Source: an uncultured Oscillospiraceae bacterium
GTDB taxonomy: Bacteria > Bacillota > Clostridia > Oscillospirales > Oscillospiraceae
NCBI GenBank assembly: GCA_944385475.1
Contig: CALWXJ010000017.1
Location: forward strand, 1-58,219
Direction: 5' to 3'
Length of the DNA stretch: 58,219 nt
How positions within the stretch are numbered: position 1 is the first letter of the stretch; each line of letters opens with the position of its first letter. The notes beneath the pieces were generated by a model. It saw only the letters and a program-made list of their open reading frames with translations. It had not been told where the DNA came from and did no database searches. A program made the translations under genes and the position numbers. Shown in pieces: positions 11,076 to 44,320 of this stretch.

Positions 11076-11522
11076 GTGCTTTATAAAGAGTTGGGAAATC
11101 TTTTGGGCAATCATATGGTGGTCAATTCCGTGGTCGCCTGGATGCTGGCTCAGGTCATCAAGACCATCATTGACGCGGTGATCCACCATCGGGTGGATTT
11201 TAATCGCCTCTTTGGAGACGGGGGGATGCCCAGCGGGCACTCCGCCACGGTGACGGCCCTGGCGGTGACTGCCGGTCTGCAGGAGGGGCTGGGCTCTCCC
11301 ATTTTCGCCATCTCCGCCGTGCTGGCCATCATCGTGATGCATGATGCCATGGGTGTGCGGCTGGAGGCGGGGAAGCATGCCAAGGCCATCAATGAGCTCT
11401 TTGACCTGATGTCCAGCAGTGCTGAGTCGGAGGAGAAGATGAAGGAATTTTTGGGTCACACGCCCCTGCAGGTGTGCAGCGGCGCGGTGCTGGGATTTTT
11501 GGTGGCCGTTTTTTTAAAATAG
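11076..11522 (+). CDS. Divergent PAP2 family (DUF212) membrane protein
   Basis: 148 residues. GTG 11076 is chosen because GGGAGGTG lies at 11063-11070; an in-frame GTG at 11052 has worse spacing. It carries the acid-phosphatase signature GGMPSGHSATVTALA and three to four hydrophobic segments, typical of the DUF212/YuiD family. By analogy to PAP2 enzymes it may dephosphorylate a lipid phosphate at the membrane, but the family has no confirmed substrate. It is a single-gene unit followed by its own terminator. Confidence 0.86.
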   Translation: MLYKELGNLLGNHMVVNSVVAWMLAQVIKTIIDAVIHHRVDFNRLFGDGGMPSGHSATVTALAVTAGLQEGLGSPIFAISAVLAIIVMHDAMGVRLEAGKHAKAINELFDLMSSSAESEEKMKEFLGHTPLQVCSGAVLGFLVAVFLK

Positions 11523-11532
11523 GGGATGAAGC

Positions 11533-11555
11533 CGCCGCGTCTGCGGCGCCTTTTT
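11533..11555 (+). terminator. Terminator of the divergent-PAP2 gene
   Basis: 6-bp CGCCGC/GCGGCG stem, 4-nt loop, then a T-run, 10 nt after the stop codon. Confidence 0.6.
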
Positions 11556-11634
11556 CTTTTTCCCGCTGCGGGCGGCGGATGCCTTTGAAAATCCAAAGGG
11601 GAGGGGCCCTTCCAAAAAGCGGCATAAAAAAGAC

Positions 11635-11663
11635 TTGTCAAAATACGGCGTGTCTGATATAAT
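11635..11663 (+). promoter_or_regulatory. Promoter of the methyltransferase / ABC importer operon
   Basis: TTGTCA, 17 bp, TATAAT, a strong match. Transcription should begin near 11670, leaving an untranslated leader of about 225 nt. Confidence 0.75.
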
Positions 11664-11669
11664 GGGCAC

Positions 11670-11864
11670 GATTTCCCGCAGGGGAGAGCCTCTTTTGCAG
11701 TTTTTCACTTGAAACGCGGCTTATGAGAGCCGCATGGCGGGCCGAAGCCTGCCTTTACGGGCTGCGGAGGGGAAGAAAAATACAAGGGGCGCCTTTGGGC
11801 GCCGCACTGATCGCGGATCCAAGTCCGCTGTATGTACTTAAGGTACACACAGCGGACTTTTTTT
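11670..11864 (+). promoter_or_regulatory. Structured leader with terminator hairpin (putative attenuator or riboswitch)
   Basis: Between promoter and first gene lie three GC-rich hairpins: 11716-11733 (6 bp), 11736-11753 (7 bp, CGAA loop) and 11788-11803 (6 bp). A strong intrinsic terminator follows at 11821-11859, with 11 outer and 5 inner pairs and seven T residues. It ends about 30 nt before the methyltransferase start. The segment GCGGA at 11813-11817 can instead pair with TCCGC at 11824-11828, inside the terminator's left arm, giving a competing hairpin. This is the design of transcription attenuation. I could not match it to the conserved cores of the cobalamin, SAM, NiCo, TPP, fluoride or T-box classes as I know them. 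Confidence 0.6.
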
Positions 11865-11893
11865 ATTTGCCGGCGCAGACCGGTAGGAAGAGG

Positions 11894-12619
11894 ATGAAGA
11901 TTATGGAGACACTCAAAGAAGAGATGACGGCATATTGGACACAGCGGGTGGAGCAGTTTTCCGCCCTGCGGATGCGGGAATTTACCGGGGGGATGCACCA
12001 GCGGTGGATGGCGGAGTTTGAAAAATACCTGCCCATGGACCATCCCCTGCGGATCCTGGATCTGGGCACCGGCACCGGCTTTTTCTCGTTCCTGCTGGCG
12101 GCCCGGGGCCACCGCCTCACCGGCATCGACCTGACGGCGGACATGATCGCCGAGGCCCGCCGCACAGGCTGCCGCATGGGCCTTCCGGTGGACTTCCAGG
12201 TGATGGATGCGGAGGCGCCCCAGTTCGCCCCCGGCACATTTGACGCCCTGGTGAGCCGCAATCTCACCTGGGGCCTGCCCCACCTTCCCCGGGCCTACGC
12301 CTCCTGGCACGATCTTTTAAAGCCCGGCGGCATCCTCATCAACTTTGACGCCGACTACTGCCGGGAGCCGGAGGAGGTGGCTCTTCCGGAAAACCACGCC
12401 CATAAAAATCTGGGAGAGGGCATGAAAACAGCCTATGAAAAGATGAAGGAGGAGCTGCGGCCCACCCAGCACCCCCGCCCGGCGTGGGACGCGGAGCTCC
12501 TGCAGGCGTCCGGGTTCCACCATGTGACCGTCGACCCCACGGTGTGGCGCCGGATCTACCGGGAAAAGGACGAGTTTTACAATCCCACCCCGTTTTTTTC
12601 CATTGTGGCCTATGCCTGA
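11894..12619 (+). CDS. Class I SAM-dependent methyltransferase
   Basis: 241 residues from ATG 11894; ATG 11903, three codons in, has equally good ribosome-site spacing. It is a Rossmann methyltransferase with motif I ILDLGTGTGFFS, acidic GIDLTADM, and motif LVSRNLTWGLPH followed by LLKPGGILINFDADY. UbiE/Methyltransf_11 type, small-molecule acceptor likely. It is the first gene behind the attenuator-like leader and about 117 bp before the ABC importer genes, all in one direction. A link to modification or handling of the imported ligand (for example a metallophore or corrinoid-like compound) is speculation. The acceptor is unknown. Confidence 0.82.
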   Translation: MKIMETLKEEMTAYWTQRVEQFSALRMREFTGGMHQRWMAEFEKYLPMDHPLRILDLGTGTGFFSFLLAARGHRLTGIDLTADMIAEARRTGCRMGLPVDFQVMDAEAPQFAPGTFDALVSRNLTWGLPHLPRAYASWHDLLKPGGILINFDADYCREPEEVALPENHAHKNLGEGMKTAYEKMKEELRPTQHPRPAWDAELLQASGFHHVTVDPTVWRRIYREKDEFYNPTPFFSIVAYA

Positions 12620-12736: not shown

Positions 12737-13684
12737 ATGGCCAAGATCATTGGACGGCGTCTTGCGCAGCTTGTGCCTACGCTCTTTGTCATCACGCTGC
12801 TTTCCTTTGCCATGATGCGCCTGGCAGGCAGCGATGTGGTGGCCCAGAAGATGCAAAATACCGGAACGGTTCTCTCTGCCCAGGCAGCGGAGGCCGCCCG
12901 GGAGGAGCTGGGGCTGGACCGGCCCTTCTGGGAACAGTACGGCCTTTGGCTTGGCGGCCTTTTCCGGGGGGACATGGGGGTGAGCTATGTCTCCGGCAGG
13001 GATGTGTTTGCCGCCTTTACGGAAAAGCTTCCCGCCACACTGGTGCTGATGGCGCTCTCCCTGGGGCTGACGGTGGCGCTCTCCCTGCCCCTGGGGATCC
13101 TGGCCGCTGTGAAGAAAAACCGGGCGGCGGATGTCATCCTCCGGATTGCAAGCTTTTTGGGCAACAGCATGCCGAATTTCTTTGTGGCGCTGGTGCTGCT
13201 GTACCTTTTTGCCATCCGCTATCCGCTCTTTCCCGTTCTCTCTTCCCAGGGTGGGGCGCGGGGTGTGGTGCTGCCGGCATTGACCCTGGCCATTGCCATG
13301 TCCGCCAAATATCTGCGCCAGGTGCGCACTGCCGTGCTGGAGGAGCTGGGCCGGGACTATGTGACCGGGGCCCGGGCCCGGGGCGTGCCCTTTGGCTGGA
13401 CGCTCTGGCGCAGTGTCCTGCGGGGGTGTCTGGTGCAGCTGGTGACGCTTTTGACCCTCTCCATGGGCAGTCTTCTGGGAGGCACTGCCATCGTGGAGTC
13501 CATCTTTGGGTGGGATGGGGTGGGGAAGCTGGCGGTGGATGCCATCGGCATGCGGGACTATCCCATGATCCAGGCCTATGTCATGTGGATGGCTTTGATC
13601 TATGTGGCGGTGAACCTGGCGGCGGATCTTTCCTACCGGCTGCTGGATCCCCGGATCCGCCTGGGAGAGGACGGGACGATATGA
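12737..13684 (+). CDS. ABC importer permease, DppB/NikB type
   Basis: 315 residues from ATG 12737 (GGGGGAGGA upstream). It has an N-terminal membrane segment (MAKIIGRRLAQLVPTLFVIT), five further helices and the EAA-like cytoplasmic loop DYVTGARARGVPF. This is the BPD_transp_1 family of oligopeptide/dipeptide/nickel importers. It pairs with the next permease, with which its stop overlaps (ATGA). Substrate is not determined by the permease sequence. Confidence 0.88.
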   Translation: MAKIIGRRLAQLVPTLFVITLLSFAMMRLAGSDVVAQKMQNTGTVLSAQAAEAAREELGLDRPFWEQYGLWLGGLFRGDMGVSYVSGRDVFAAFTEKLPATLVLMALSLGLTVALSLPLGILAAVKKNRAADVILRIASFLGNSMPNFFVALVLLYLFAIRYPLFPVLSSQGGARGVVLPALTLAIAMSAKYLRQVRTAVLEELGRDYVTGARARGVPFGWTLWRSVLRGCLVQLVTLLTLSMGSLLGGTAIVESIFGWDGVGKLAVDAIGMRDYPMIQAYVMWMALIYVAVNLAADLSYRLLDPRIRLGEDGTI

Positions 13685-14538
13685 GGGGAAAGATGGACAA
13701 AATTCTCCAGAAGAGAAAAACAGTAAAGGAAATCTACTTTATAGCAATCCTGGCGCTGGCCATCTTGGTGCTGCTGGGGGCGGCGTTTGCCCAGTACCTC
13801 TGCCCCTATGACCCCAATGCCCAGGATCTTGCATTGGCCCTGCAGCCCCCGGGGGGAGAACACCTCTTGGGAACAGACCGCTATGGCCGGGACATGCTCT
13901 CACGGATCATCGTGGGGGCGAAGGTGAGCGTATTTTCCGCCCTGACGCTGGTGGCGGCGGTCTGCGCAGTGGGGACTGCGCTGGGCGTTTTGTGCGGCTT
14001 TTGCGGCGGCTGGCTGGATGAGGCGGTGATGCGCCTTTGCGATATGTGCCTGGCTTTTCCCGGCCTGGTGCTGGCTTTGGCAGTGGCCGCGCTTTTGGGG
14101 GGCGGCATAGAAAATGCCGCCATTGCCCTGGGAGTGGTGAGCTGGCCCAAATATGCCCGGCTGGCCAGGGGCCAGACCATGACGCTGAAACAGGAAGACT
14201 TCATTGCCGCTGCCCGCCTGGCGGGGGACAGCGCCGGCCAGCTGATCCGGCGCCATATCCTTCCCAATCTGGCAGGACCGGTCCTGGTGATGGCTGCCCT
14301 GGATATCGGCACCATGATGATGGAGCTGGCGGGCCTCTCCTTTTTGGGCCTGGGGGCACTGCCGCCCACGGCGGAGTGGGGCAGTATGATGAGCGACGGA
14401 CGGACCCTGTTTCAGACAAAGCCCTGGGTGATGCTGGGGCCTGGAGCCGCCATCTTTTTGACGGTGGCGGTATTCAATCTCCTGGCGGACGCCCTGCGGG
14501 ACCGGCTGGACATCCGCTCCATGGGGAATGAGATGTGA
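13681..14538 (+). CDS. ABC importer permease, DppC/NikC type
   Basis: 285 residues from ATG 13681, which overlaps the previous stop as ATGA, so translation is likely coupled. An N-terminal helix (YFIAILALAILVLLGAAFA), the family signature HLLGTDRYGRDMLSR, and the EAA loop DFIAAARLAGDSAGQLIRRH are present. It forms the heterodimeric channel with the preceding permease. Confidence 0.9.
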   Translation: MRGKMDKILQKRKTVKEIYFIAILALAILVLLGAAFAQYLCPYDPNAQDLALALQPPGGEHLLGTDRYGRDMLSRIIVGAKVSVFSALTLVAAVCAVGTALGVLCGFCGGWLDEAVMRLCDMCLAFPGLVLALAVAALLGGGIENAAIALGVVSWPKYARLARGQTMTLKQEDFIAAARLAGDSAGQLIRRHILPNLAGPVLVMAALDIGTMMMELAGLSFLGLGALPPTAEWGSMMSDGRTLFQTKPWVMLGPGAAIFLTVAVFNLLADALRDRLDIRSMGNEM

Positions 14539-14592: not shown

Positions 14593-16161
14593 ATGTTCAA
14601 GTACCGCCGGGGGATTCTTGCCCTCATCTTGGCCCTGTGCATCTTGCCGCTGTCCGGCTGCGGGGGGGACGCCTCCGCAGATCCCGAGCAAAGCGGGCAG
14701 GAGCCTGTGACCTTCACCCTGGGGGATGTCTCCTTCAGCGCCGAACACGATGAGACGGATGTCAATCCCCACAGGGGATATTCCGGCTGGGCCTGTATCC
14801 GCTACGGGGTGGGGGAGACGCTGTTTCGCTATTCCGATACCATGGAGATCCAGCCTTGGCTGGCCACCGGCTATACCCTGATAGACCCCTTGACGTGGGA
14901 GATCACCCTGCGCCAGGACGTCCGCTTTACCAGTGGCCGGGCGCTGGATGCCCAGGCCGTCAAAGAGTGCCTGGAGCATCTGGTGGAGGTCCATGACCGG
15001 GCCCGGGGGGATTTGATGATCGACACCATGGAGGCGGAGGGGCAGACCCTGACCATTCGTACCACGCAGCCAAGACCCGCCCTGCTGAACTACCTCAGTG
15101 ATCCCTATGGCTGTATCATCGATATGGCCTGGGGGATCAGCGAGGAGGGCATCGTCAGCGGCACCGGCCCTTACCAGGCGGTTTCCCTGGTGACGGGGCA
15201 GGAGCTGCACCTGGTGAAAAATAAAGACTACTGGGGCGGGGAGCCGCAGGTGGATGAGATCACGGTTCTCACCATCTCTGACGGCAATACCCTCACTATG
15301 GCGCTGCAGTCCGGGCAGATCGACGCCGCCTACGGCATGCCGTATGCCAGCTATCCCCTGTTTGAAAACGAGGGTTATACCTTCTCCTCCACCCCCACCA
15401 GCCGGGCTTTCTTCCTGTGTATGAACTTTGAAAGCCCCCTCACCCAGGACCCGGCAGTGCGGCAGGCCATCGCCACGGCCATTGATAAGGAGGGGTTTGT
15501 AAACACCCTCCTGGAGGGCAACGGCTATGTGGCCTCCGGGGCCTTTCCGGAGGAGTTCTCCTTTGGCGGCGGCGTCACCCCCCAGGCCTACGATCCCCAG
15601 GGGGCCCGTGAGGTGCTGGAGGCGGCGGGCTGGGTGGACAGCGATGGCGACGGCATCCGGGAAAAGGACGGAAAGAATCTGGTCATCCGGTGGCTCACCT
15701 ATCCCAGCCGCCAGGAACTGCCCCTTCTGGCGGAGTCCGCCCAGGCGGCCCTGGGGGAGATCGGCATTGACGTGGAGATCAATTCCACGGCGGACTGCAG
15801 CTCCTACCTCTCTGATCCCGGCAGCTGGGACGTCTATGCCAGCGCCATGATCACGGCCCCCACCGGGGACCCGGAGTATTTTTTCGCCTCCTGCTGTCTG
15901 GACAGCTCTGTGGCCAATCACGGCGGCTATCACAGCGACCGCCTGGAGCAGCTGGCCCAGGAGATGGCCGCCGCCTTTGAAAGCGGGGAGCGCAGCCGCC
16001 TGGCGGTGGAGATGCAGCAGATTTTGCTGGAGGACAACGCCTATGTGTTCTGCTCCCACCTGCGCATGAGCATGATCAGCCGCGCCGGCGTCACCGGCCT
16101 GACGGCCCACCCTTGCGACTTTTATGAGCTGACGGCGGATCTTCGGGTGGAGGAACCGTAA
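14593..16161 (+). CDS. Oligopeptide/nickel-type ABC substrate-binding lipoprotein
   Basis: 522 residues from ATG 14593 (AAAGGAGGAGC upstream). Lipoprotein signal peptide with lipobox LSGC, cysteine about residue 22. SBP_bac_5 family (cluster C): YGVGETLFRYSD, LRQDVRFTSGRALDAQAVK, GTGPYQ, NKDYWGG, FLCMNFESPLTQDPAVRQAI. The GETL and NKDYWGG blocks resemble NikA-like members, hence a possible metal or metal-chelate ligand, but peptide or opine uptake is equally possible. It is membrane-anchored outside the cell and feeds the two permeases upstream. Confidence 0.88.
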   Translation: MFKYRRGILALILALCILPLSGCGGDASADPEQSGQEPVTFTLGDVSFSAEHDETDVNPHRGYSGWACIRYGVGETLFRYSDTMEIQPWLATGYTLIDPLTWEITLRQDVRFTSGRALDAQAVKECLEHLVEVHDRARGDLMIDTMEAEGQTLTIRTTQPRPALLNYLSDPYGCIIDMAWGISEEGIVSGTGPYQAVSLVTGQELHLVKNKDYWGGEPQVDEITVLTISDGNTLTMALQSGQIDAAYGMPYASYPLFENEGYTFSSTPTSRAFFLCMNFESPLTQDPAVRQAIATAIDKEGFVNTLLEGNGYVASGAFPEEFSFGGGVTPQAYDPQGAREVLEAAGWVDSDGDGIREKDGKNLVIRWLTYPSRQELPLLAESAQAALGEIGIDVEINSTADCSSYLSDPGSWDVYASAMITAPTGDPEYFFASCCLDSSVANHGGYHSDRLEQLAQEMAAAFESGERSRLAVEMQQILLEDNAYVFCSHLRMSMISRAGVTGLTAHPCDFYELTADLRVEEP

Positions 16162-16186: not shown

Positions 16187-16966
16187 GTGGATGAGGTTTT
16201 GACCTGCCGGGATCTGCAGGTGCGTTACGGCTCCCAGCAGATCCTCCGGGGCGTTTCTTTTTCCGTGGCTCCGGGAGAGATCCTGGGGATCGTGGGACAG
16301 TCCGGTAGCGGAAAGAGCACCCTGCTGCGGGCGCTGATGGGGCTTTTGGAGCCCACCGCCTCCGTGACGGGGGAGGTTTTTGTGGCCGGTCGGCGCTGGA
16401 CAGGCCTTGGGGAAAAGGAGCTGCGGCCTCTGCGGGGCACGGAGATGGGCCTGATTTTTCAAGATGCCGGGGCGTCCTTTTGCCCTATCCGTACCGTAGG
16501 CGCCCAGATTCTGGAGAGCGTGGCGGCCCACCGCCGGGAGGGGCGGGAGGAAGTGCGACGCCAGGCACTGGACCTTTTTCAAAAACTGCGGTTTCAGGAT
16601 GGGCAGCGGGTTTGGAACAGCTATCCCTTTCAGCTCTCCGGGGGGATGAATCAGCGTCTGGCCATTGCCGCGGCCATGCTGCTGCACCCAAAGGTGCTGC
16701 TGGCGGATGAACCCACCAGCGCCCTGGATGTGATGGGGCAAAAGCAGGTGATGGAGGAGCTTGCCCAGCTGCGCAAGGCGTGCGGCAGCGCCGTTATTCT
16801 GGTGACCCATGATCTGAGGCTGGCTGCCGCGCTGGCGGAAAATATCCTGGTGCTGCGGGAGGGGGCGGTGGTGGAATACGGCCCTGCGGACCGGGTCCTC
16901 CAGGCCCCTCAGGCGGAGTATACCCGGGCCATGCTGGCGGCGGTGCCGCGGATAAGGAGGGATTGA
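16187..16966 (+). CDS. ABC importer ATPase, DppD/NikD type
   Basis: 259 residues from GTG 16187, with AGGAGAGGAGG ending 6 nt before it. Walker A GQSGSGKST, Q-loop LIFQDAG, signature LSGGMNQR, Walker B VLLADEP, switch VTHD. It powers the permease pair. The C-terminal zinc/iron-sulfur-like Cys motif of the longer DppD ATPases is absent, as in NikD. Confidence 0.9.
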   Translation: MDEVLTCRDLQVRYGSQQILRGVSFSVAPGEILGIVGQSGSGKSTLLRALMGLLEPTASVTGEVFVAGRRWTGLGEKELRPLRGTEMGLIFQDAGASFCPIRTVGAQILESVAAHRREGREEVRRQALDLFQKLRFQDGQRVWNSYPFQLSGGMNQRLAIAAAMLLHPKVLLADEPTSALDVMGQKQVMEELAQLRKACGSAVILVTHDLRLAAALAENILVLREGAVVEYGPADRVLQAPQAEYTRAMLAAVPRIRRD

Positions 16967-17725
16967 ATGGAGCCGATTCTGGAGATGCGGAACCTCTGCA
17001 AGACCTTCCGCCGCCGGGACCGGGGGGCGGTAGAGGCTGTGCGGGACGTGTCCCTCCAGCTCTTTCCCGGGGAGGTGCTGGGCATCGTAGGGGAGTCCGG
17101 CAGCGGCAAAAGCACCCTGGCCCGCATGGCCTGCGGGCTTCTTCCCCCCTCCTCAGGAAGCCTTTTGGTGGAAGGGGCGGAGGTCCACTGCGCCAGGCGG
17201 AAGGAGCGAAAGCGGCTTTATGAGACGGTGCAGATGGTCTTCCAGTCTCCCTTGGCCTCTTTTGATCCCCGCCGCACCATCGGTTATACAGTGGGGGAGG
17301 GCCTGAGAAACCGCGGCCAGACTGCCGGGGAGGCGGCGGCGCAGACCCAGGCGCTTTTGACGCAGTGCGGTCTGCCGGAGGAGCTGGCCCGGCGCTATCC
17401 CCGCCAGCTCAGCGGCGGGCAGTGCCAGCGTGCCGCCATTGCCCGGGCGCTGGCGCTGCAGCCCAAGGTCCTCATCTGCGACGAGGCCACCAGCGCTCTG
17501 GATGTGGTGGTGCAGGGGGAGATCCTGGAGCTTTTGCGCCAGATGCAGCGCACCCGGGGTCTTGCGTGTTTGTTCATCTGCCATAATCTGGCCCTGGTGC
17601 AGTCTTTTTGCCACCGGGTGGCGGTGATGCGGGAGGGTATGCTGGTGGAGGAGGGGACACCGGAATCGGTGATCCTGCATCCCCAGAACGAATATACCCG
17701 CCATCTGATCGAGGCGGTTTTATAG
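16967..17725 (+). CDS. ABC importer ATPase, DppF/NikE type
   Basis: 252 residues from ATG 16967, directly after the previous TGA, with AAGGAGGG upstream. Walker A GESGSGKST, Q-loop MVFQSPLASFDPR, signature LSGGQCQR, Walker B VLICDEAT, switch ICHN (His retained, Asp replaced by Asn). Last gene of the operon, followed by a strong terminator. Confidence 0.9.
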   Translation: MEPILEMRNLCKTFRRRDRGAVEAVRDVSLQLFPGEVLGIVGESGSGKSTLARMACGLLPPSSGSLLVEGAEVHCARRKERKRLYETVQMVFQSPLASFDPRRTIGYTVGEGLRNRGQTAGEAAAQTQALLTQCGLPEELARRYPRQLSGGQCQRAAIARALALQPKVLICDEATSALDVVVQGEILELLRQMQRTRGLACLFICHNLALVQSFCHRVAVMREGMLVEEGTPESVILHPQNEYTRHLIEAVL

Positions 17726-36539: not shown

Positions 36540-36568
36540 TTGACTTTTATAAGGGCCTTAAATATAAT
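36540..36568 (+). promoter_or_regulatory. Promoter of rplJ-rplL
   Basis: TTGACT, 17 bp, TATAAT. Confidence 0.75.
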
Positions 36569-36575
36569 ATGTGAT

Positions 36576-36693
36576 GCGTTCCAAAGACAGCAGGTTGGGG
36601 ATCACCCCTGTAAATCCTGCCGAGGGCGGCAAATCGTAAGATTGCTATCCGTCCTTGTGGCTGCGCCCAAGGGCGGTTTCCTTTTTTGAACGC
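36576..36693 (+). ncRNA. Ribosomal protein L10 leader
   Basis: Closing stem GCGTTC (36576-36581) with GAACGC (36688-36693). Inside are the conserved AAAGACAGCAGG and AATCCTGCCGAGG halves of the L10/L12 binding stem, and the CCTTGTGGCTGCGCCCAAGG hairpin followed by CCTTTTTTG. This matches the Firmicutes L10 leader, where the L10(L12)4 complex binds and promotes termination, giving autogenous control. Confidence 0.88.
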
Positions 36694-44115: not shown

Positions 44116-44320
44116 TAAAAAGCCCCGCGCGAGCCGTGTAGACCCCGTTATAACCTGCACCTTCACGGACAGGTGGGTTGCCTCCAGCGCGCTTTACCGC
44201 TTCCAACTTCCAGCCGCAAACAGCAGCCGGGAGGCCTGCGAACCACGAACTGATCCAGCATCCCTTATAACGAAATGTGGGTTAAAAAAAGGTCTATCAC
44301 GAACCCCGCAGGGCGATGGT
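44116..44320 (-). ncRNA. ssrS: Candidate 6S RNA
   Basis: About 200 nt with no plausible coding frame, transcribed in the direction of prsA. Its ends pair: GCCCTGCG (44307-44314) with CGCGGGGC (44121-44128), followed inward by TAGACC with GGTCTA. Inside are CGTTATAA with TTATAACG, GGTT with AACC, GCCTCC with GGAGGC and a terminal CCGGCTGC/GCGGCTGG hairpin. The long rod with internal loops, the GGGGTTCGTG 5-prime end and the terminal T-run after GGGGC match 6S RNA layout. It is a call from folding by eye; no covariance search was possible. Confidence 0.6.

Follow-up and report, generated by a model that had tools for sequence, protein, structure and literature searches.

Two tandem tetraloop hairpins with ACGR loops make up the guanidine-II (mini-ykkC) class, which is found with guanidine genes. 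A nickel/cobalt theme in a Firmicutes leader is known from the NiCo (czcD) riboswitch, a four-way junction controlling metal efflux. Control of the synthesis of the NPN cofactor (lactate racemase and relatives) is, to our knowledge, known only from LarR in lactobacilli. The targets of the ANTAR proteins (EutV/NasR/AmiR) are described in the accessible part of PMC3369931 as a pair of small hairpins that are recognised through their loops; one of them overlaps the 5' arm of a terminator, and tolerance in spacing is limited. Each loop is described there as six nucleotides long, the first being A and the fourth G. In the LoaP/dfn system, a small leader hairpin precedes a terminator in a Firmicute. 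The dfn element is a UNCG hairpin, drawn separate from the terminator in the accessible part of PMC12691694.

The leader analysed here lies within a stretch of 58,219 nucleotides from an uncultured Oscillospiraceae bacterium (the window), in front of an operon encoding a methyltransferase and an ABC importer. It resembles the guanidine-II class in its tandem tetraloop hairpins, but the loops of the family are mostly HGAA and no Rfam match was obtained. The nickel/cobalt theme and the setting in a Firmicutes leader are shared with NiCo (czcD), again without an Rfam match. Compared with ANTAR targets, mostly HGAA tetraloops are found instead of hexaloops with A1 and G4, the antiterminator sits on a third hairpin (P3), 28-95 nt downstream where measured, and the genes are of nickel type instead of ethanolamine or nitrogen genes. 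Overlap of a hairpin pair with the terminator was seen here in a second pair at two loci (L078, L082), while elsewhere P3 stands apart from the P1-P2 pair. LoaP was set aside because of the UNCG loop of its target (PMC12691694, accessible part), and CsrA/RsmA, with GGA in AGGAA loops, because most loops here are HGAA. The features of the leader and of the downstream operon are collected in Table 1.

Table 1. Leader elements and downstream genes in the window.
Feature	Position	Strand	Basis
Sigma-70 type promoter, TTGTCA-17-TATAAT	11635..11663	+	Sequence scan
Structured 5' leader	11670..11893	+	Fold z-score; start placed near 11670 from the promoter
P1 hairpin, GCGGCTT-ATGA-GAGCCGC, 7 bp, loop non-HGAA	11716..11733	+	Sequence and comparison
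P2 hairpin, GGCGGGC-CGAA-GCCTGCC, 7 bp, HGAA tetraloop, C-G closing pair	11736..11753	+	Sequence and comparison
Extra hairpin, GGCGCC-TTTG-GGCGCC, 6 bp	11788..11803	+	Sequence only
P3 antiterminator hairpin, GCGGAT-CCAA-GTCCGC, overlapping the terminator 5' arm	11813..11828	+	Sequence, comparison and folding
Intrinsic terminator, stem 11821-11859, T run 11858-11864	11821..11864	+	Sequence and comparison
Class I SAM-dependent methyltransferase	11894..12619 (start 11894 or more likely 11903)	+	Pfam Methyltransf_25, 6.5e-21; orthologs
Permease, NikB/Opp2B-like	12737..13684	+	336.6 bits, just below cut-off 350
Permease, NikC/Opp2C	13678..14538	+	313.2 bits, above cut-off 300
Solute-binding protein, Opp5A/NikA-like	14593..16161	+	342.3 bits, below cut-off 600
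ABC ATPase, CntF/NikD-like	16187..16966	+	Below cut-offs
ABC ATPase, GsiA/NikE-like	16967..17725	+	Below cut-offs

The promoter matches the consensus at 11 of 12 positions, as expected from the strong promoter proposed in the initial annotation, and a TG precedes its second hexamer; shuffled sequences contain 0.3 such sites on average. The leader folds far more stably than shuffled versions of itself (z -7.2 for 11670-11893, z -4.3 for 11670-11830). The three GC hairpins noted earlier are all present in the sequence. As leader parts, P1 and P2 stood the comparison and recur in relatives, whereas the hairpin at 11788-11803 does not look conserved and has no consistent counterpart among the compared relatives' leaders. 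The terminator stem was likewise confirmed, but two residues of the seven-T run, which had been placed behind the stem, fall within it. The distance from the terminator to the first start codon had been put at about 30 nt; alignment with orthologs suggests that the methyltransferase gene begins at the second ATG, about 40 nt downstream. The P1 and P2 loops of the window are 20 nt apart. Among P1, P2 and P3 only P2 carries an HGAA loop, and the window is an atypical member of the family.

The window leader gave no match at the gathering cut-off in Rfam 15. A relaxed search of 11520-12000 (E up to 10) returned six matches, all under gathering. Twenty ortholog loci yielded tRNAs only and eight lar, nik and methyltransferase loci no match, and the NiCo (czcD) model was not matched in the window or in either of these two sets. 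Known riboswitch and leader classes were rejected on these grounds, in keeping with the earlier failure to fit the leader to a known riboswitch core. No description of such an element was found in the open-licence literature on nickel, NPN and lar regulation and on tandem-hairpin antitermination. Elsewhere in the window, Rfam places a 6S RNA (44118-44317, minus strand) and a ribosomal protein L10 leader (36563-36691, plus strand).

P3 and the terminator are mutually exclusive, since both use the arm 11823-11828. The complementarity of GCGGA (11813-11817) with TCCGC (11824-11828) is as initially described. When the window transcript is cut before the 3' arm of the terminator, P3 is part of the predicted minimum-energy fold; in the full transcript the terminator takes over. 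Thirty of 32 loci were folded in this way (L253 and L259 were left out, and P3 of L076 was read by eye). In 25 of the 30, the cut transcript had P3 in its minimum-energy fold; in every one of the 30 full transcripts, P3 gave way to the terminator. The stability of P3 alone ranged from -2.6 to -10.7 kcal/mol at the folded loci. In the compared leaders P3 is a hairpin of 4-8 bp, and its 3' arm is the beginning of the terminator.

The sequence of the shared arm varies together with both of its partners. Its second position is T, C, G or A and pairs with the P3 and the terminator partner in 15 of 15 core loci (G-U allowed), as counted by a script from typed anchors because alignment A3 misplaces L073 in P3. 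In the diverged loci L070, L071 and L074 an entirely different shared arm (GGTAAT) still pairs both ways. This dual pairing across loci, together with the predicted folds, supports the terminator/antiterminator switch that had been suggested for the window; P3 and the terminator exclude each other and covariation maintains this exclusion, which is the hallmark of a transcription-antitermination attenuator. The predicted default of the switch is termination in the leader, so something would have to stabilise P3 for the operon to be on.

Similar leaders were found upstream of methyltransferase orthologs at 20 of 80 loci, in addition to the window. Eighteen of them were recognised by eye as a leader with an intrinsic terminator. 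The other two, L098 and L115, were added by a later scan for tandem HGAA hairpins, and in both the leader stands before an additional methyltransferase gene that lies upstream of the matched gene. The remaining 60 loci showed no such leader; in several of these, the sequence upstream is short or the gene is internal to an operon. Upstream of the genes, the window and the 18 leaders found by eye contain 61 tetraloop hairpins with a stem no shorter than 5 bp, and 25 of these have NGAA loops, every one of them HGAA (U 10, C 8, A 7, G 0). Shuffling gave a mean of 0.3 and a maximum of 2 NGAA hairpins in 200 runs. In 57 other ortholog upstream regions, many of them coding, NGAA was found in 2 of 71 tetraloop hairpins.

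The loci, and the P1 and P2 loops used for spacing, were largely selected by eye. With the loops assigned by us, the P1-P2 loop spacing is 19-20 nt in 24 of 26 leaders (L207 included) and 23 nt in the other two, while the stems vary in length from 4 to 10 bp. The P2 loops in a 22-row alignment are AGAA (10), TGAA (6), CGAA (2), CAGA (3) and GGAA (1); HGAA is present in 18 rows and absent from four, and a C-G pair closes the four nucleotides in 20 of the 22. The gap from P2 to P3 ranges from 28 to 95 nt. L078 and L082 carry a second tandem pair, the downstream member of which is P3. Of 32 loci, automatic detection recovered a tandem P1-P2 pair in 24, P3 in 30 and at least one HGAA hairpin in 29. 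It detected no P3 in L076 and L259 and picked a hairpin differing from the reading by eye in L066, L070, L257, L266 and L269.

Covariation was examined in alignments that included the window itself. In 12 sequences, 81.3% of the P1/P2 cells were paired, compared with at most 51.2% in slid versions, and the score was 0.63 compared with at most 0.22. Within this set P1 was weaker (66.7% of cells paired) than P2 (95.8%). When only P2 was considered, in 22 sequences with lar leaders among them, 90.2% of cells were paired (at most 50.8% slid) with a score of 0.86 (at most 0.39 slid); five pairs had changes on both sides, a count that 402 of 500 shuffles reached and that is not above shuffles. An earlier alignment of 14 sequences had scored 0.58 compared with at most 0.24. 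Alignments A5 and A6 were discarded because the aligner shifted hairpins. Five loci without a clear P1-P2 pair (L062, L067, L073, L084, L087) are absent from all P1-P2 alignments, L064 and L066 (P1 offset) were omitted from A8, L076 is in A7 and not in A8, and L207 is in neither. The comparison of leaders in front of related operons, which the initial annotation had named as one check, thus came out in favour of a conserved structure, as the stems covary. Of the two outcomes that would have counted against the leader according to that annotation, a clear match to a known Rfam class and a lack of covariation and hairpin conservation, neither came about. A DNA similarity search with the leader in 300 genomes of the family gave a match in the window's genome only, so the conservation is structural and not at the sequence level. 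As far as sequence comparison goes, the leader is confirmed as real, with P1, P2, P3 and the terminator recurring elsewhere.

The specificity of this layout was assessed with two models, R1 (P3 and terminator) and R2 (P1-P2), both run in 18 leader-bearing genomes. R1 matched the known leader in 12 of the 18, each time with E no higher than 7.3e-9, and failed to do so in the other six (G202, G482, G483, G487-G489). Of its 14 further matches, judged by eye, only L163 is a triple-hairpin leader; the other 13 are not. Run on 400 genomes of the family with E up to 0.02, R2 gave nine matches, six real leaders and three sequences without the layout (L214-L216). On ten lar leaders it matched the P1-P2 region only in L258 and L266, at about 20 bits. 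Neither model is sensitive, and R2 is insensitive to lar leaders in particular. In 391 genomes of the class (E up to 0.05), R2 returned the window plus one false match, L284, which has no terminator and lies near an apparent mobilisation gene as judged by eye; by this search, which is insensitive to lar leaders, the family seems restricted to Oscillospiraceae and their relatives. A direct scan of 1.33 Mb (overlaps included) for correctly spaced HGAA hairpins found 17 distinct pairs, compared with one in the reversed sequence. Of these 17, 14 belong to leaders, in which they form P1-P2 or the second pair. Another two consist of P3 and the terminator loop, and the last, L019, seems unrelated.

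The importer in the window is probably of nickel type, with scores of the binding protein and the ATPases under curated cut-offs. The hint of a link to nickel has gained in strength, since related leaders stand before nickel-type importers and larE-larB-larC, and two adjoin hypB (L098 and L115). A second leader in genome G418 (L163/L206; taken as Flavonifractor plautii), found with R1, precedes genes for a NikA-like binding protein (under the cut-off at 88.5 bits), a permease, further open reading frames, FmdE, LarE, LarB and LarC, and the three Lar proteins all score over curated cut-offs. R2 found a leader in UBA1417 (L196/L207) before larE-larB-larC, with an imperfect P1-P2 pair (24.2 bits), and, in the 400 family genomes, one in G150 (L213), followed by genes for a methyltransferase and a permease of the Opp family.

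In a search for LarB, 94 of 200 family genomes were positive. The lar survey comprised 50 loci from 49 genomes and gives no estimate of prevalence, because 20 loci were picked by hand, partly for kinship to leader-bearing genomes. Leaders with a terminator and hairpins precede lar genes in 10 of 49 (L217, L251, L253, L255-L259, L266, L269), and most lar loci inspected have no such leader. L217 lies in the window's own genome, before larE, larB and larC; only its P3 is HGAA, and the upstream hairpins have CAAAG loops. L269, from the window's genus, has three AGAA hairpins, and P3 of L259 is weak. In L230 and L237, larE is preceded by a terminator that has no HGAA hairpins with it. For 19 of the 50 rows the automatic survey did not locate larE, and two of these rows (L258, L269) do have leaders. 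Two lar gene sets that were checked are followed by an importer of SBP5 type (L273) or FecCD type (L275). FmdE-family proteins are encoded within or beside gene sets with lar and importer genes (L206, 5298-5834; L275, 10879-11403), one of them with a DksA-type zinc finger. Taken together, these leaders make a strong candidate for a new family of attenuators controlling a nickel regulon.

On balance, we consider it probable that the leaders are cis-acting transcription attenuators on genes for nickel-type import and the NPN cofactor in Oscillospiraceae and some Lachnospiraceae, read by a factor that binds P1, P2 and P3. By default, the terminator would outcompete P3, as the predicted energies indicate, and transcription would halt in the leader. 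A factor that senses the status of nickel or of the cofactor would grip the loops of P1/P2 and P3, or alternatively those of a second hairpin pair with P3 as the downstream member; an RNA-binding protein that acts as a dimer is the most likely candidate. Once bound, it would stabilise P3 and RNA polymerase would read into the operon. We lean towards such a protein, and away from a metabolite pocket, because little beyond the C-HGAA-G caps and their spacing is conserved. Beside the lar operons, no gene recognisable as an RNA-binding regulator was seen among the partly annotated open reading frames.

Direct binding of nickel(II), NPN or a precursor by the tandem HGAA hairpins and P3, without a protein, is possible, though we regard such a riboswitch with some doubt. 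The fixed P1-P2 loop spacing would suit it, as would the guanidine-II class as an example that two tetraloop hairpins can form a riboswitch, and leaders with nameable downstream genes precede genes for nickel-type import, NPN or adjoining methyltransferases. However, no conserved pocket is seen beyond the caps, the P2-P3 gap varies widely, the loops are not self-complementary and, with termination as the predicted default, ligand binding would have to switch uptake genes on. An RNA-based nickel/NPN sensor in the wider sense, with the tandem HGAA hairpins as an antitermination switch working by direct binding or through a protein family that reads tetraloops, is likewise a tentative proposal. 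A response regulator of a diverged ANTAR system might instead bind the dual hairpins. ANTAR domains are present in 25 of 27 leader-bearing genomes, the logic of a dual hairpin with one hairpin overlapping the terminator is alike (PMC3369931, accessible part), and the second pair in L078 and L082 ends in P3. We nevertheless think this improbable: the hexanucleotide loop rule is not followed by P2, with its C-G pair around four nucleotides, neither the window's genome (85.9% complete) nor G480 gave an ANTAR match, and three of four sampled ANTAR genes neighbour an apparent glutamine synthetase or glutamate synthase, as judged by eye.

Attenuation by a leader peptide, with a ribosome stalling in a short open reading frame to choose between P3 and the terminator, might start from the ATG at 11723 within P1. 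No stop codon interrupts this frame on its way through the terminator into the methyltransferase (298 aa), so it is not a short reading frame with its own stop, which makes this explanation very unlikely. Least credible of all is an ordinary terminator of the upstream gene accompanied by chance hairpins. Most second-tier R1 matches do look like plain terminators, but the terminator of the window follows a strong promoter and precedes its own operon, and covariation of the hairpins across operons and genera already contradicts a chance origin. An RNA element common to the nickel-type importers and larEBC of gut bacteria would mark out a nickel/NPN regulon. It would offer a testable handle on the sensor and would help to assign the methyltransferase-Nik operon to nickel use. 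A protein that reads HGAA tetraloops at a fixed spacing would represent a new antitermination family.

Orthologs of the methyltransferase elsewhere reach up to 65% identity. When 86 genomes from the genus of the window were searched, nothing beyond the window's own genome matched better than E 1.1e-11, so the methyltransferase operon is patchily distributed; the close match in the genus is limited to the window's genome, and other genera of the family do have the gene. This distribution may reflect horizontal transfer, loss or mis-binning. Related methyltransferases stand in tandem at L142, L034, L035, L098 and other orthologous loci, and the window has one. A palindrome like TATCCCCC(N)GGGGGCTT occurs at the -35 position before 28 of 77 orthologs (e.g. 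L134, L137, L140, L082), with or without an attenuator, in a count that includes L091, probably a different sequence. The 450 bases before the methyltransferase gene of the window contain no match to it. The palindrome, which we take to resemble operators of the CsoR/RcnR type, suggests a second control at the DNA level. In L134, L137 and L140 a second, inverted copy was seen by eye about 80 nt upstream, suggestive of a divergent promoter.
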